The notes under the pieces are model-generated. The model did no database searches. It was not told where the DNA came from and saw only the letters and a program-made list of their open reading frames with translations. From contig JAUWGW010000017.1 in assembly GCA_030606215.1 (NCBI GenBank), positions 1 through 34,656 of the forward strand: a stretch of 34,656 nt of DNA. Reading direction: 5' to 3'. Below are positions 3,590 to 29,619 of this stretch, piece by piece. Both the position numbers and the translations under genes were made by a program. The DNA comes from a bacterium. Lineage in GTDB: Bacteria > NPL-UPA2 > JAUVJM01. Numbering within the stretch: position 1 is the first letter of the stretch; each line of letters begins with the position of its first letter.

Positions 3590-4439
3590 CTCTTAATTTT
3601 TTCCCCTTTTTTAGAAATTTCATTAAAGATGTGCTATCTCCGGCTCTTATAGATTTTTCTATTCTCAGGAGCAATCCCCGATACATTTTTAAAGAAGATA
3701 CTATTTTACCTTTATTACTCATACAAATGTCTTCCCAGAGGATAGGGGAGGAGGCGGCAATTCTTGTTGTATCGCGAAACCCGCTTGCTATGAGGGAGAG
3801 GATACGCTTATCTTTTTTCTTGAAATCACCTATAAGGTTGACAAGACCTGCGGCCGCAAGGTGAGGAAGGTGCGATGTTAAAGCTAAGAGACTATCGTGT
3901 TCTTCAGGGTTCATAATCATGACCTTCATTCCCAGAGCTTTCCAGAAATTTTTAATAGAGTTAATACTGCGCGGGGAGCTTCTCCTGCAAGGTGTGAGAA
4001 TACAAGCTGCATTTTTGAAAAGTGTACTGCTTGCGGCTTCTATACCGGATTTTTCTGAACCTGCGAGTGGATGGCTGCCGACAAAATAAATGTTTTGAGG
4101 CAAAAGTTTTTCCATTGCCATCACAATCTTTTGTTTCGTGCTTCCCACATCCGTAATGATACAACCTGATTTAAGGTGCGGGATTGCAGTTTTAACAATC
4201 TTGCTAATTGCACCTACCGGGACAGCTATAATCACAAGGTCACTATTTCTGACCCCTTCCGCTATGTCAGTAGTTCCCTTATCAACAGCTCCAATTTTAA
4301 CGGCTTCCCGGATTGATTCCTTTCTTCTTGCCACTCCGATAACCTCGCCGAGTCTATTCTTTCTTATAGCCATTCCGACCGAACCGCCAATAAGCCCCAT
4401 CCCCACAATAGCTATTTTTTTAAATCTTAAATTTTTCAC
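3570..4439 (-). CDS. tyrA: Prephenate dehydrogenase
   Basis: The protein oxidatively decarboxylates prephenate (or arogenate) on the way to tyrosine. The Rossmann motif GMGLIGGSVG is at the N-terminus, and the GSHPLAGSEKSG block carries the catalytic His. The C-terminal helical dimerisation domain is present, but there is no ACT domain, so tyrosine feedback through ACT is not expected. The open frame extends to a GTG at 4469, but I prefer the GTG at 4439. It starts right before the Rossmann fold and has an AAGGAG twelve bases upstream, a rather long spacing; a CTG at 4445 would be better spaced. The start overlaps the end of the upstream ATPase gene by 20 bases. Confidence 0.9.
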   Translation of the reverse strand: MKNLRFKKIAIVGMGLIGGSVGMAIRKNRLGEVIGVARRKESIREAVKIGAVDKGTTDIAEGVRNSDLVIIAVPVGAISKIVKTAIPHLKSGCIITDVGSTKQKIVMAMEKLLPQNIYFVGSHPLAGSEKSGIEAASSTLFKNAACILTPCRRSSPRSINSIKNFWKALGMKVMIMNPEEHDSLLALTSHLPHLAAAGLVNLIGDFKKKDKRILSLIASGFRDTTRIAASSPILWEDICMSNKGKIVSSLKMYRGLLLRIEKSIRAGDSTSLMKFLKKGKKLRDELNKS

Positions 4440-5769
4440 TTTCAGACTTTGCTCCTTTTTCCGGAACACGGCAATATGTTAAAAGCCATTTTCTGATAGG
4501 GAAAAATCTAACCTTTCCCCCTTGTCTTTTTTCTTCACCTTCATAATCTTGGGTAATAATTATCAGATTGGAACAATTCAGTTTTTCACTTGCTCTAAAT
4601 AAGTTTTTTAGTTCACGCTGTCTTGTATTATAATCGCTTATATCAAAACAAGCCTGAATGAGAGTTAAAACCTTTCTCCCCTTTTTAATCAAAAAATCCA
4701 CTTCTCCCCCATTTGAAGAATAATAAAAAATATCTCTATTTGGTTCTAATCCCTTTTTTAATAGAGAAAGAAAAACTAAATTCTCAAATTTTTTGCTTTC
4801 ATCATTTCCAATAATGCTGGTAATAAAAGCGTTATCAACCATATAAATTTTGGGAAGGCTTTGCTCTACATTCTTCAAAGAAAAGGAAAATTTTTTCAGG
4901 GGAAAGAAGATAAAAGCATCATTGAAAAATTCCAGATAATTATACAGCGTGTTTTTGCTAACTTTGACATTTAGAGACTTCAAAAAATTATAGAATCTGT
5001 GAACTGAAAACTCTTTTGCTCTAACTAAATGATTGAACATTGATTTAATTACTTTAGTATTTCTTATTTTGTGTCTTTCAATGAGGTCTCGATAAATGGT
5101 AACTTCTACAATTTCATTAATCATTCTTTCTCGTTCCTTAGGGTAAATTATAGTTTCCGGGTACCCGCCATATGAGAAATATTCTGAAAAAGCATTTGCT
5201 ACCTTAGCTTTTTCTCCGGAAGAAAGATATTTTTTATAAGTGATATTTTTCGCTTTCAGGAACTCTGAAAAGGAAAAAGGTAAAAGCACATAATTTAAAG
5301 TTCTACCACGCAATGAAGTAGCAATTTCTTTTGACAGGAGTTTGGAAGAGGAACCGGAGATAAAAACCGAAGCCTCTTCCTTATCCAGAATACTTCTAAT
5401 AAAGATCTCCCATCTTTCAACATTCTGGATTTCGTCAAAGAACAACCACACCTTTTGGCTTTTATTCTCAGGATAAATTTCGTAGAAGACTTCCAGCGCC
5501 ATTGATAAATCATTCAGGGAAAAATCAGTTAATTTTTGGTCTTCAAAGTTTATATATAAGATTTCCTTCTTCTTAACCCCTTTTCTGAGTAGTTTTTCAA
5601 TTAAATAATAAAGGTAATAAGTTTTCCCGCTTCTTCTTGGTCCCAAAATCACAATAGCCCTTTTTATGGGAATTTCCAAATCTACTTCCAGTTCTCTTTC
5701 TATTAGCTCCGGAAGGTCTTTCTTTTGAAAATCCAGAATTATTTGAGCCAGGATTTCTTTCTTTAACAT
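4420..5769 (-). CDS. AAA_14 / DUF4143 family ATPase
   Basis: The N-terminal AAA_14 domain has Walker A GPRRSGKT (residues 43-50), Walker B VWLFFDEIQ (107-115) and the SGSSSKLLSKEIATSLRGR block (138-156) typical of the family. A DUF4143 domain follows from about 215. Near residue 365 a GGEVDFLI motif followed by LIQACFDI resembles a PD-(D/E)XK nuclease-like fold. These ATPases are widespread, often patchily distributed, and their cellular role is not settled. The gene has a consensus sigma-70 type promoter and an inverted repeat before its start, so it is probably its own transcription unit reading on into tyrA. Two sampled 60-base lines count 23% and 27% GC by hand, lower than in prs, which suggests recent acquisition in front of the aro operon. 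Confidence 0.9.
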   Translation of the reverse strand: MLKKEILAQIILDFQKKDLPELIERELEVDLEIPIKRAIVILGPRRSGKTYYLYYLIEKLLRKGVKKKEILYINFEDQKLTDFSLNDLSMALEVFYEIYPENKSQKVWLFFDEIQNVERWEIFIRSILDKEEASVFISGSSSKLLSKEIATSLRGRTLNYVLLPFSFSEFLKAKNITYKKYLSSGEKAKVANAFSEYFSYGGYPETIIYPKERERMINEIVEVTIYRDLIERHKIRNTKVIKSMFNHLVRAKEFSVHRFYNFLKSLNVKVSKNTLYNYLEFFNDAFIFFPLKKFSFSLKNVEQSLPKIYMVDNAFITSIIGNDESKKFENLVFLSLLKKGLEPNRDIFYYSSNGGEVDFLIKKGRKVLTLIQACFDISDYNTRQRELKNLFRASEKLNCSNLIIITQDYEGEEKRQGGKVRFFPIRKWLLTYCRVPEKGAKSESEKFKI

Positions 5770-25433: not shown

Positions 25434-25584
25434 GGAACCGCTTATTGTAACTCACACGTTTTCTCCCTTCTTCATACCAACTAAGTTGCCCATATCCTGT
25501 CGCAAGACAATCACAAATCGCCCTTGACAAATGCGAAAAAATCTTAATTGAAAATTTAATATTCCCATTTATCTCCTCATACAA
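25393..25584 (-). pseudogene. Possible decayed remnant in the gap after the acetyltransferase gene
   Basis: The 156-base gap 25434-25589 between two convergent genes holds a 63-codon minus-strand frame. Its middle part, LSRAICDCLATGYGQ, loosely resembles the SxxxNIAEGYGR segment of 23S-rRNA-intervening four-helix-bundle proteins. The frame runs 41 bases into the MBL gene. A GAGGAG before a second, shorter frame (ATG at about 25570) is also present. Both may be chance. No clear terminator is seen here. Confidence 0.2.
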
Positions 25585-25589
25585 TATGT

Positions 25590-26087
25590 TTACAAAAAGT
25601 TTTTCTCATAAAGCATAAAATGTCTTCCATGCTTGTAATAATCCTTTACAGCAATATTCCCACTAACAACTAAAGTGCTACCTTCTTTTTCACTAATGTT
25701 TTTATACCCGGCTTTTTCAAACAGCTTCAGAGAAGGTATGTTTTCAGGATCTATTGTAAGCTCAATCCGCTCACAACCAATTTTCATCAATTCCATTTCA
25801 ACCGATTTCAAAAGTTTCATTCCTATCCCCTCGCCATGCATTTTAGGAGTTACGCCTATTTGCCATAAGAAATATGTCTTATTATGAGTTTGCGAGATAA
25901 AGCCCATTACAAATCCAATTATGCTGTTATTATATTCAGCAACAAAGCAGGTGTTTCCAAAATATCTTAGGATTATTTTGTAAAAATGTTCAGAATAATT
26001 TTCTAACGGCTTGCAATTGGAAACAAATTGATAAACTTTGAGAAACCCACTTTCATTCGCTCTGCGTATGGTTATAGTTTCTTTCAT
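25590..26087 (-). CDS. GNAT acetyltransferase, EctA-like; proposed beta-lysine acetyltransferase
   Basis: The 165-residue protein is one GNAT domain. [55 protein letters not shown] (acetyl-CoA loop) and [20 protein letters not shown] follow the pattern of EctA, the diaminobutyrate acetyltransferase of ectoine synthesis. Its position, overlapping the aminomutase fusion gene by four bases, is that of AblB, which acetylates beta-lysine at N-epsilon. AblB proteins I know are longer, about 270 residues, and not EctA-like. I infer an acetyltransferase acting on beta-lysine or a derivative; acetylation of another diamine such as diaminobutyrate is the main alternative. Confidence 0.85.
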
Positions 26088-28756
26088 AATCTACTTTCAC
26101 GAAAGGCAATTTTAGACTTGATCATTTCCTCAGTGCCAATATCAAACCTATAGTGAAAACTGCCATTAACTAATGAGACTGCTTTCTCTACCTTTTTATT
26201 CGCTTTAGAAACAGTATCAGCTTTCCCAATAAGAGCAATACCTCTCTCAGAACCGGTATTCAATTTCCCGTTGTCGTTAACTCCACAGCTGTAGTAGATA
26301 TTAACATCTTCTTTTTTTATATCTGATTCTATAAAAGCAATATCCAATACCTCATTTAATTTCTCGGGATAATTATTAGGAACTATGTATTTACATACTG
26401 ACGCTTTATTCTCAAGTCTGAGTTTCTTCTCTTTACCTCTCAGTAAATCTTTAATTATATCCAATACATTATCCTTCAGTATTATCAAAGTATTCATCCA
26501 TTCAGGATCTCCAGGACGAAAATTGTATTCTATAAGTTTTATCCCTTTCTCTGTAATCATAAACTGCCCGTATAAAAAACCACGGCATATCTGACCTGTT
26601 TCAGCTTGAAAAGCTTTCACGGTTTTTCTTATGATATCAATTCCTGAATCATAATCTTTCTGCTTCATAAAAGGCAATATATACCCTATATCTGAGTAAG
26701 AGCCCATACTTGCGGTATTAAGTCCTCTGTCACCTGGCAATTTTTTCTTAAAATCCTGCACAGCAGGAGTTGGGATTATGCAAGTTCCATTAACCAAACA
26801 TTGCAGAGTAAACTCTTCGCCTTCAAGCTTTTCCTCTATCAAAACTTTTGAGTTATCATTTAAGATATTTGTTATGTACTCTATAACCTCCTTTTTATTT
26901 CTTAATTGGTCCCCAGAAACCTTCACTCCTAATCCCTCAGTAAGAGAAACTGGTTTAACAGCGACGTTCCATTGAATATCTTTTGCATATTGAATAGCTG
27001 GCTTAGTTTCGCTAAATACATTAAATTCGGGCAGTGCATCAATTCTATATTTACGCATAAGTTTTCTTGCAAACTCTTTATCCGATTCCAATTTTGCAGC
27101 TGTGCTATTCGGCCCAAACACAGGTATTTTTTCTGCCTCTAAAACATCAACAATACCAAAAGAAAGTGGAAATGCCGTTGTTATAATTACTAGATCTGCT
27201 TTAACTGTTTTAGCGTATTTCACAATATCTTCTATTTTATATAAACTGCCTATTTTATAACCATCAACTAAGGATACTATTCCTGGATTTTTTGTATCCA
27301 AATATGAAAACACTTTTATCCTTTTATTGCTTTTTATATTCTCAATAGTAATTTGCTCCTTTGCCCAGCTTCCAACTATGAGAACATTTTTTATATTATT
27401 TAGATTGGAGAGGGATAGTCTATCACCAATATTCTTTTGATTTTTGTTCCTTCTTTTAGCTCTGTCAGTATGTTCCGGAGTAAGAGCAATTGTCTTGTCA
27501 AAGTCAGATAAAAGTTTTCCAATTCCTGTGGCATTAACTTCCTTTGCCGCATCAAGCTTTAACTGCAGTTTACAATCAGCGCAGTTTCTATCACAAAAAA
27601 TAGGTTCGTAAGAATCTGGTTCCTTATAAGTAGAAATTACACCTTCATAATTTCGTAGAACAATCTTGTTGGTTGACCATGAGATTATATAATTTGGCAT
27701 AACAGGAATTTTTCCAGCGCCACTTGGCGCATCAACAATGTAAGTAGGAATAGCGAAACCGCTTGTGTGTCCTATTAAACTTTCAATAATTTCTATGCCC
27801 TTTCCGACTGGGGTTCTAAAATGGGATAAGCCTTCTGTTAAATCGCATTGATATAAGTAATAAGGTCTTACTCGACTTTGAACAAGGTCGTGTGATAATT
27901 TTTTAATTATCCGAGGACAGTCATTTACTCCTGCCAATAATACACTCTGATTACCTAATGGAATTCCTGCATCGGCCAATTTTCTTAACGATTCTTTTGC
28001 TGAGGCTGTTATTTCCCTAGGGTGATTAAAATGTGTATTAATCCATAGCGGATGATGTTTTTTCAACATCTCAATTAAATCATCAGTTATGCGATAAGGC
28101 AAAACAGCAGGCATCCTTGTTCCTATTCTTATTACCTCAACATGCGGAATTTTTTGCAGTTCGGTCAGTATCCAGTCAAGATAGTCATCTGACAACATAA
28201 AAGGATCACCTCCAGAAAGCAGAACATCTCTGACAACAGGAGTGTTTTTTATATAGTTAATGCCTTTCATGATTTCTTTCTTTGATGGAATATAATCCGA
28301 GTCGCCCACTTTCCTTTTTCTTGTGCAGTGTCTGCAGTACATGGAACATGTATTGCTTACTATAAACAGAACCCTGTCTGGATATCTATGTGTTATACCA
28401 ACAACTGGACTATCTTTGTCTTCATGCAACGGATCGCTCATATCATATTTTTCTAAAATTAGTTCGCGAGAATCAGGGAATGACTGCTTAAAGACAGGAT
28501 CGTTTATATAATCATCTTTATCAATAAGAGACAGATAATATGGAGTTATAGACATGGGAAATTTATCAATTGTTCTTCTAAGTTCAGACTTTTCCTTTTT
28601 ACTTAATTTGATGTCGGTTAGTTTCTCAAATGCCTCAACATCTTTAATAGAGTGTTTTAACTGCCATTTATAATCTCTCCAATTTGAAAAAATTGGTTCC
28701 TGCTCAGCAGAAATAATATTAACTATGTTTTTTTGTTGTTTATTATCGAATTTCAT
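26084..28756 (-). CDS. Lysine 2,3-aminomutase fused to a PurD-like ATP-grasp ligase
   Basis: Residues 1-415 form a complete lysine 2,3-aminomutase. The radical-SAM cluster is C137-x3-C141-x2-C144, the PLP lysine is K349 (SGAGKIP), and the lysine-binding aspartates are D305 (CDLTEGL) and D342 (VDAPSG). The zinc cysteines C280, C388, C392 and C395 are present. Residues about 455-885 match glycinamide ribonucleotide synthetase (PurD): [54 protein letters not shown] and [12 protein letters not shown], with Mg ligands E743 and N745. The PurD N-terminal GGREHA motif is changed to SWAKEQ, so phosphoribosylamine is probably not the substrate. I infer that the first half makes beta-lysine and the second uses ATP to form an amide with it or with its acetyl form. 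The start overlaps the MarR stop by one base. Confidence 0.92.
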
Positions 28757-29292
28757 TATTCTTTTAAACTTTTGACATCTTCTTCTGATTGAATAATAGA
28801 AGATTCAACATCTACCATCTTATCTTCTGCTCCAAAGATAGAAGAATCAATTAACACTTCTGATACCATCATTGACAATAATTTTAGCAAGCTTTTATTG
28901 ATTTCTATTTTCTCCTCTTTTTTTATAACAGATAAAGCATTTATCAATTTTTTTTGGAGTGAAAGCGGAGCGCTTTTTAGAGTCTCTTTCCCCTTCTCTG
29001 TTAGTTCAATAAGTATCACTCTTCTATCAGCGAAATTCCTTGCTCTTGTGACCAGTTCTTTTCTTTCAAGTTGATCTATAACACCAGTAATCATACTTGG
29101 AGACAAAGAAACCTTTTTACTTAACTGGCTAAGTGAAATTGGGCTTGAATCTCCAAGAATTAATAAGCAAGATAGTTGTGAAGAATTTATTTTATGTTCC
29201 ATTTTTAATTTTGCAGAATAAATATCTATGGTTTTAATTATTCTTCTTAAAGTACTGAAGATCTCAAATTCTATAGTACTGCTATTGTTCAT
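28756..29292 (-). CDS. MarR-family transcriptional regulator
   Basis: The 178-residue protein has the MarR winged helix: [19 protein letters not shown] and [11 protein letters not shown] form the recognition unit, and [18 protein letters not shown] is the wing with its conserved DRR. Helices before and after provide the dimer interface; the acidic C-terminal tail ([10 protein letters not shown]) extends past the usual end. It is the first gene of the cassette and shares its transcript with the aminomutase fusion. MarR-type EctR and CosR regulate ectoine and other compatible-solute genes, which fits the proposed role. A long dyad over its promoter suggests autorepression. Confidence 0.92.
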
Positions 29293-29344
29293 TTTTCTAT
29301 TTTCCTTCTATAATTTTTATGCTTTTTCTGACAATCAATGCTTT

Positions 29345-29380
29345 ACACATAAATATTATATCTATAAAATATTTATATGT
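29345..29380. promoter_or_regulatory. Candidate MarR operator: 13-base dyad covering the -10 box and spacer
   Basis: ACACATAAATATT (29345-29357) and AATATTTATATGT (29368-29380) are inverted repeats with one mismatch in 13 and a 10-base centre. The dyad covers the -10 box, the spacer and the edge of the -35 box. This is an ideal place for a dimeric repressor to block RNA polymerase; the adjacent MarR protein is the natural candidate. Confidence 0.6.
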
Positions 29381-29383
29381 CAA
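29355..29383 (-). promoter_or_regulatory. Predicted sigma-70 promoter of the MarR / beta-lysine cassette
   Basis: On the minus strand TTGACA (29383-29378) and TATAAT (29360-29355) are both perfect consensus hexamers with a 17-base spacer. The predicted start near 29348 gives a leader of about 56 bases to the MarR ATG, which is preceded by AGAAGGAAAA. A promoter this strong normally needs a repressor, in line with the dyad that covers it. Confidence 0.75.
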
Positions 29384-29422
29384 AGTTTTTCTACCTCTTT
29401 TTTTAAAAGCATAGAAGGACTT

Positions 29423-29619
29423 ATGCAGAAGAATCTATTTGAGGAAGCAGTAGTTAGGTTAAAGGAATCTTTAAAAGAAAATTCAAACCATGCTCCAACC
29501 AACTCCAACTTAGCTTTCTGTCTTGAGAAGCTGAAGCAGTATGATGAAGTAGTCCAGGTATGAAGAAGGTGTGACAGGCTCAGTAAGACTTCTAAGGGGA
29601 AGATACAACAGCACATAAT
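29423..29619 (+). pseudogene. Tetratricopeptide-repeat gene remnant
   Basis: From ATG 29423, after a GAAGG ribosome site, 46 codons read as one TPR unit and the start of the next (FEEAVVRLKESLKENS, LAFCLEKLKQYDEVVQ), then hit TGA at 29561. Skipping one base at 29558 would continue as YEEGVTGSVRL for a further 20 codons to TAA at 29617. The open frame also extends upstream without a good start. I read this as a truncated, frameshifted leftover of a larger TPR protein; a functional 46-residue peptide is less likely. The rest of the gap 29293-29753 holds only the promoters listed. Confidence 0.5.

Follow-up and report, generated by a model that had tools for sequence, protein, structure and literature searches.

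The locus

The window analysed here is a stretch of 34,656 nucleotides, and on its minus strand, at positions 26084-28756, it carries a single open frame of 890 amino acids with zero internal stops. Translation, Pfam/TIGRFAM-type domain matches and an alignment to 2A5H identify it as a fused gene for a lysine 2,3-aminomutase (KAM) and a PurD-like ATP-grasp ligase. The fusion is the middle member of an operon, also read on the minus strand, that begins with a MarR-family regulator (29292-28756; PF01047) and ends with an EctA-like GNAT acetyltransferase of 165 amino acids (26087-25590), the overlaps being 1 nt and 4 nt (ATGA), respectively.

The original prediction for this DNA described, without giving its strand, one 890-codon frame with a complete aminomutase and a complete ATP-grasp ligase, and frame and domains are indeed as described. 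The linker, given there as lying near residues 415-455, is shorter. The KAM domain comprises residues 1-440 (27437-28756), the junction about residues 437-454 (27395-27448), and the ligase domain residues 455-890 (26084-27394). Absent from that prediction was the third enzyme, the GNAT, which turns out to be the constant partner.

The aminomutase half

The KAM half matches TIGR03820 with 773 bits (cut-off 525) over residues 24-436 and aligns at 54% to 2A5H in Foldseek. In an alignment made to map residues onto 2A5H, the radical SAM CxxxCxxC motif is recognized at residues 137-144 (28325-28348, minus strand) as C137, C141 and C144, while D305, D342 and K349 correspond to D293, D330 and K337; the residues singled out earlier as marks of a complete aminomutase are thus all in place. 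Both sequence criteria for AblA/KamA, namely the TIGR03820 score and the CxxxCxxC motif together with the PLP lysine and the lysine-binding aspartates, assign this half to AblA-type lysine 2,3-aminomutases. In a quick tree of KAM sequences, the ligase-type KAMs are interleaved with the AblB-type KAMs, and the ligase-associated KAM appears to be no special subtype. This interleaving fits one common β-lysine-forming step followed by exchangeable downstream modules.

The fusion

The nearest relatives of the fused protein, in two genomes of another phylum (L114 and L130), are 92-93% identical to it and are encoded by two unfused genes, with a stop/start overlap of one base (TGATG). Relative to L114, one nucleotide is deleted at the junction, five are inserted and TGA is changed to TGG. 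There is no in-frame ATG, GTG or TTG between residues 400 and 481, so a separate start with an intact ligase N terminus is impossible and the ligase depends on the fusion. Among 80 aminomutase loci from public genomes, the order KAM-ligase was found in four, each time as two genes. In three of them, from Methanoperedens nitroreducens, Methanoperedenaceae FeB_1 and Euphemobacter frigidus, the GNAT is present too; the fourth, from an Aminicenantes genome, lies on a contig that breaks off within the ligase gene.

The fact that all other KAM-ligase relatives found are unfused, and that the genome is a draft in 34 contigs, could be taken to mean that the join is an assembly or sequencing error and that the organism really has two adjacent genes. 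This would require two independent indels that jointly keep the frame, one of them of 5 nt outside a homopolymer, as well as the change of TGA to TGG. We regard such an error as quite improbable; an assembly artefact at the junction is unlikely, and the fusion is probably a genuine, recent and local event. It is also incidental, since every other KAM-ligase relative found has two adjacent genes. The proposed search for the same two-domain architecture accordingly had a divided outcome, with the same gene pair and its neighbours recovered and the fused form seen in no other KAM-ligase relative.

The ligase half is related to PurD

Residues 457-875 contain GARS_N, GARS_A and GARS_C in order, and residues 457-878 match TIGR00877, the curated PurD model, with 324 bits (cut-off 288); the members of the ligase family mostly score above this cut-off. 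E743 and N745, cited earlier in support of a complete ligase, lie within a conserved EYN motif, and with all three GARS domains complete that claim is borne out. PurD structures are the best structural matches to an AlphaFold model of the ligase half. A model of the whole fusion (17 rows) has a mean pLDDT of 59 and is confident for the ligase half only, and with the KAM half so poorly modelled no domain interface can be claimed.

A separate, ordinary purD elsewhere in the genome had been suggested as something to look for, and one is present (G000:C5:17497-18753), its product scoring 566 bits against TIGR00877 compared with 324 for the fused ligase. An ordinary PurD also occurs in all six ligase-bearing Methanoperedens. 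In a tree of 30 sequences, 13 ligases and 17 PurDs fall on opposite sides of one branch with support of 100/100, although some end branches are long and the finer placement inside each group is unsure.

In Aquifex PurD, the residues reported to bind ATP are K103, K143, E185, E192 and K214, those for magnesium are E100 and K214, and those for glycine are D212, R287 and E292 (PMC8880213). By alignment these sites are K560, K601, E641, E648, K670, E557, D668, R747 and E752 in the fused protein, and all nine residues are identical in all 13 ligases and all 17 PurDs; R747 and E752 belong to a 10-residue motif (residues 743-752; 26501-26530, minus strand). The phosphoribosylamine side of PurD is formed by the motifs GGREHA, GPE and TGGMG. 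In place of the first, where PurD has G-G-R-E-H, the fused protein has GSWAKEQ (residues 462-468; 27353-27373, minus strand), with G, S, W, A and K invariant across the 13 ligases, E found in 12 of them and Q in 11; GPE has become TTA and TGGMG has become TASMG across the ligase family. The earlier suggestion that loss of GGREHA points to a different amine is thereby reinforced across the whole family, so that the acyl-phosphate chemistry would be kept and the amine acceptor would be new. The glycine site, too, is probably kept. Its neighbours are altered, from F to P after R747 and from A or T to W after E752, and the activated acid may for this reason not be glycine; on the other hand, since the glycine-binding residues are all retained, glycine may remain the activated acid, in which case β-lysine would be the amine acceptor and not the acid.

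Could the ligase half simply be a plain GAR synthetase whose linkage to KAM is accidental? Its score above the curated PurD cut-off is what one would expect of such an enzyme, and it shares with PurD the fold, the domain order and all of the reported ATP, magnesium and glycine residues. It differs in its acceptor-site motifs, including the lost phosphoribosylamine loop, in the presence of a separate PurD of 566 bits elsewhere in the same genome, and in its linkage to KAM and GNAT instead of purine genes, in an operon conserved across phyla. We consider a plain GAR synthetase extremely improbable, and judged by its sequence the ligase is a relative of PurD and not PurD.

The Methanoperedens genome L116 encodes, besides an ordinary PurD, a 503-residue PurD homologue (L116:5429-6940) that is 41% identical to the ligase and may be another divergent PurD paralogue. 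Neither this protein nor a 35% identical one in L121 was admitted to the ligase family, as no KAM or GNAT gene adjoins them and they look like ordinary or divergent PurDs.

The acetyltransferase and the regulator

The GNAT has a PF00583 match and scores 82.5 bits against TIGR02406 (EctA), below the cut-off of 120.6. Its best PDB sequence matches are EctA; with a structure model, many GNATs give comparable Z scores and the 50 matches listed do not include EctA, so the link to EctA rests on sequence. EctA is thus the closest curated family and, by sequence, the closest solved structure for an enzyme that itself falls below the EctA cut-off. The substrate of EctA is a diamino acid, whose terminal amine it acetylates, and by this precedent β-lysine or the ligase product could reasonably supply the amine for the GNAT. 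An ectoine-type route was considered and rejected: PF06339 (EctC) has no match in the window genome (G000) and none above cut-off in 13 bearer genomes. Nor is the GNAT a canonical AblB, as TIGR03827 has no match in it, or anywhere else in the window genome.

A MarR gene lies upstream in both the window and L114 and probably encodes the regulator of the operon; many AblA-AblB operons likewise have a MarR homologue next to ablA. No Rfam matches to RNA regulators were found in ten loci.

Conservation of the operon and its relation to AblB

The conserved unit is the operon of KAM, PurD-like ligase and EctA-like GNAT, not the fusion. Its bearers include six Methanoperedenaceae species, Auribacterota, an Omnitrophota-group genome, the Aminicenantes genome with the truncated locus, and two small phyla. 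The arrangement KAM-ligase-GNAT is seen in the window (fused) and in L114, L130, L007, L010, L120, L015, L131 and, to the contig end, L027. Three Methanoperedens (L117, L118 and L119) have KAM-AblB-ligase-GNAT. In G090 and G1011, ligase and GNAT form one gene of 620-621 amino acids located away from KAM, and G090 has KAM-symporter-AblB elsewhere in the genome. Ligase and GNAT are adjacent in every locus long enough to tell. These arrangements point to one module, able to replace AblB or to accompany it.

In the remaining aminomutase loci KAM-AblB is the rule, and the original prediction named AblB as the only partner of AblA. That does not hold here, where AblB is absent and the ligase and GNAT replace or supplement it. 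A TIGR03827 search found AblB in none of the nine KAM-ligase genomes lacking an adjacent AblB, although these are draft genomes and single absences are uncertain. Compared with the AblA-AblB operon of methanogens, bacteria and Methanoperedens, the ligase operon has in common the aminomutase, its operon position, the MarR and MscS/YnaI neighbours and an acetyltransferase partner; it differs in the absence or supplementation of AblB and in two additional enzymes, the PurD-like ligase and a GNAT from a different subfamily.

In Methanoperedens, ynaI, a gene for an MscS-type channel, lies upstream of both the AblB and the ligase versions. The ynaI-kamA-ablB operon is salt-induced (PMC11337218), and salt induction and solute accumulation are in the literature for the AblB version only. 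The gene lengths in that report (ynaI 1098 bp, kamA 1326 bp, ablB 870 bp) agree better with the AblB-type METP1 locus (L009:4894-7317) than with the ligase-type Mnv1 locus (L007:4912-7332), and the report is thus probably silent on the ligase version.

Distribution and horizontal transfer

On a ligase profile, family members score above 650 bits (full length) and ordinary PurDs about 300 to 410 bits. By this measure the ligase is present in six of 34 Methanoperedenaceae, in two of five genomes of the small phylum that holds L114, in two of 82 genomes of the phylum of G090, in one of 285 Omnitrophota-group genomes, and in one of 297 genomes from the phylum of the Aminicenantes locus, that one being the Aminicenantes genome itself. 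Among 386 spread genomes, it was found in the window genome and two others; a fourth match, L121, is an ordinary PurD by context. The ligase family is rare and patchy. No relatives were found in viral_contigs, and no plasmid matches at E 1e-60.

Positions 25532-29424 of the window share 90% DNA identity with L114 and L130, and the rest of the window has no match to either. This segment has 34% G+C inside a region of 42%, L114 and L130 having 35% overall. By identity and composition, it was evidently acquired from the L114/L130 lineage or a close relative. Elsewhere in the window, at 4420-5769, a gene for an AAA-type ATPase-like protein of 449 amino acids lies in a local A+T-rich stretch of 32-36% G+C, which may mark another acquired segment.

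A proposed pathway and its alternatives

We propose that this is an osmolyte operon, a variant of AblA-AblB, in which the ligase joins glycine or a similar compound to β-lysine and the GNAT acetylates, giving a neutral compatible solute; we put the probability of this reading at roughly one half. KAM is predicted, on strong family knowledge, to convert L-lysine to β-lysine. Using ATP, the PurD-like ligase would first convert an acid, most likely glycine or another small amino acid like it, to an acyl phosphate and would then move the acyl group to an amine of β-lysine instead of phosphoribosylamine. The EctA-like GNAT would acetylate the remaining amine, after or before ligation. The product would be a neutral acetylated dipeptide-like compatible solute, for example Nε-(N-acetylglycyl)-β-lysine or an isomer. 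We infer the substrates, the order of steps, the product and the osmotic role; glycyl phosphate and its transfer to the β-lysine amine are suggested by the retained and changed residues together with the operon, and the role as a compatible solute by the gene context.

There is a precedent of sorts in N-acetylglutaminylglutamine amide (TIGR03103), an acetylated dipeptide osmolyte made by a GNAT and an ATP-grasp enzyme. By analogy, both systems would pair an ATP-grasp ligase with a GNAT to make an acetylated dipeptide solute, and ligase and GNAT are sometimes fused. The present ligase is, in contrast, of the PurD type, has its GNAT at the C terminus when fused, gives no significant match to TIGR03103, and serves a β-lysine branch; the GNAT itself scores only 26.7 bits against that model (cut-off 569). 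Our search of the open-access literature found no paper on this module, on an aminomutase/ATP-grasp link or on glycyl-β-lysine.

The main rival, which is close to the view of the original prediction, keeps the same operon and osmolyte role and has the ligase activate the carboxylate of β-lysine, or of Nε-acetyl-β-lysine, and condense it with ammonia or an amino acid, so that the product is an amide or a β-lysyl peptide. Substitutions next to the glycine-binding residues (F to P, A to W) would suit a different acid, and the position of the ligase directly after AblB in three Methanoperedens means that Nε-acetyl-β-lysine could be the substrate. Still, no member of the family departs from D668, R747 or E752, the glycine-binding residues of PurD, and it is the amine-acceptor loops that are altered; we think this rival somewhat unlikely. 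The original proposal of a ligase acting on β-lysine to make a new solute stands in its tie to β-lysine through the operon, in the changed amine-acceptor site and in the likely osmolyte context, while the retained PurD glycine residues speak against β-lysine as the acid.

It is also conceivable that the GNAT merely replaces AblB, that the solute is ordinary Nε-acetyl-β-lysine and that the ligase makes something unrelated, given that most bearers lack AblB and that the GNAT resembles EctA, with its action on the terminal amine of a diamino acid. The inseparability of ligase and GNAT, fused in two genomes, and the presence of AblB and GNAT together in one operon in three others make this doubtful. 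A remaining alternative, that β-lysine is turned by the operon into a secreted or signalling natural product and not into an intracellular solute, draws on the occurrence of β-lysine amides in antibiotics and on an ABC transporter of the amino-acid type, made up of an ATPase and a chain that combines binding protein and permease, that follows the operon in L114 (7589-9734) and L130 (2885-5030). We judge it very unlikely. There are no NRPS, modifying or resistance genes nearby, the MscS and MarR neighbours also adjoin ordinary ablA-ablB, and a homologue of the ABC gene lies between KAM and AblB in the Lentisphaeria genome L076, suggesting that the transporter may import the solute or its precursor.

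Taken with these alternatives, the sequence evidence appears to strengthen the guess of a new β-lysine derivative and to shift its weight from the fusion to the conserved three-enzyme module; it suggests that β-lysine is the basis of a further protective solute not yet reported. Somewhat more tentatively than the pathway itself, we propose that the module makes a new compatible solute, an acetylated glycyl or aminoacyl β-lysine, by an ATP-grasp activity hidden as PurD in databases, and that it moves between methane-oxidising archaea and bacteria, where it takes the place of AblB or accompanies it. If this is true, β-lysine would be the core of a second solute family, beyond Nε-acetyl-β-lysine, in methane-oxidising archaea and several uncultured bacterial phyla, which would bear on how freshwater methane oxidisers withstand salinisation. 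The PurD family would have been recruited to peptide-like osmolyte synthesis, and some genes called purD by the curated model would not be purine genes, with effects on pathway predictions.

One further gene accompanies these operons. In several Methanoperedens, whether or not the ligase is present, the 3' end of the β-lysine operon is occupied by a gene for a second KamA-family radical SAM protein of about 604 amino acids with an N-terminal extension (L008:8162-9976, L118:969-2783, L119:8124-9938 and L120:3085-4902); the L008 copy matches no curated equivalog (lysine, glutamate or arginine 2,3-aminomutase) above cut-off.
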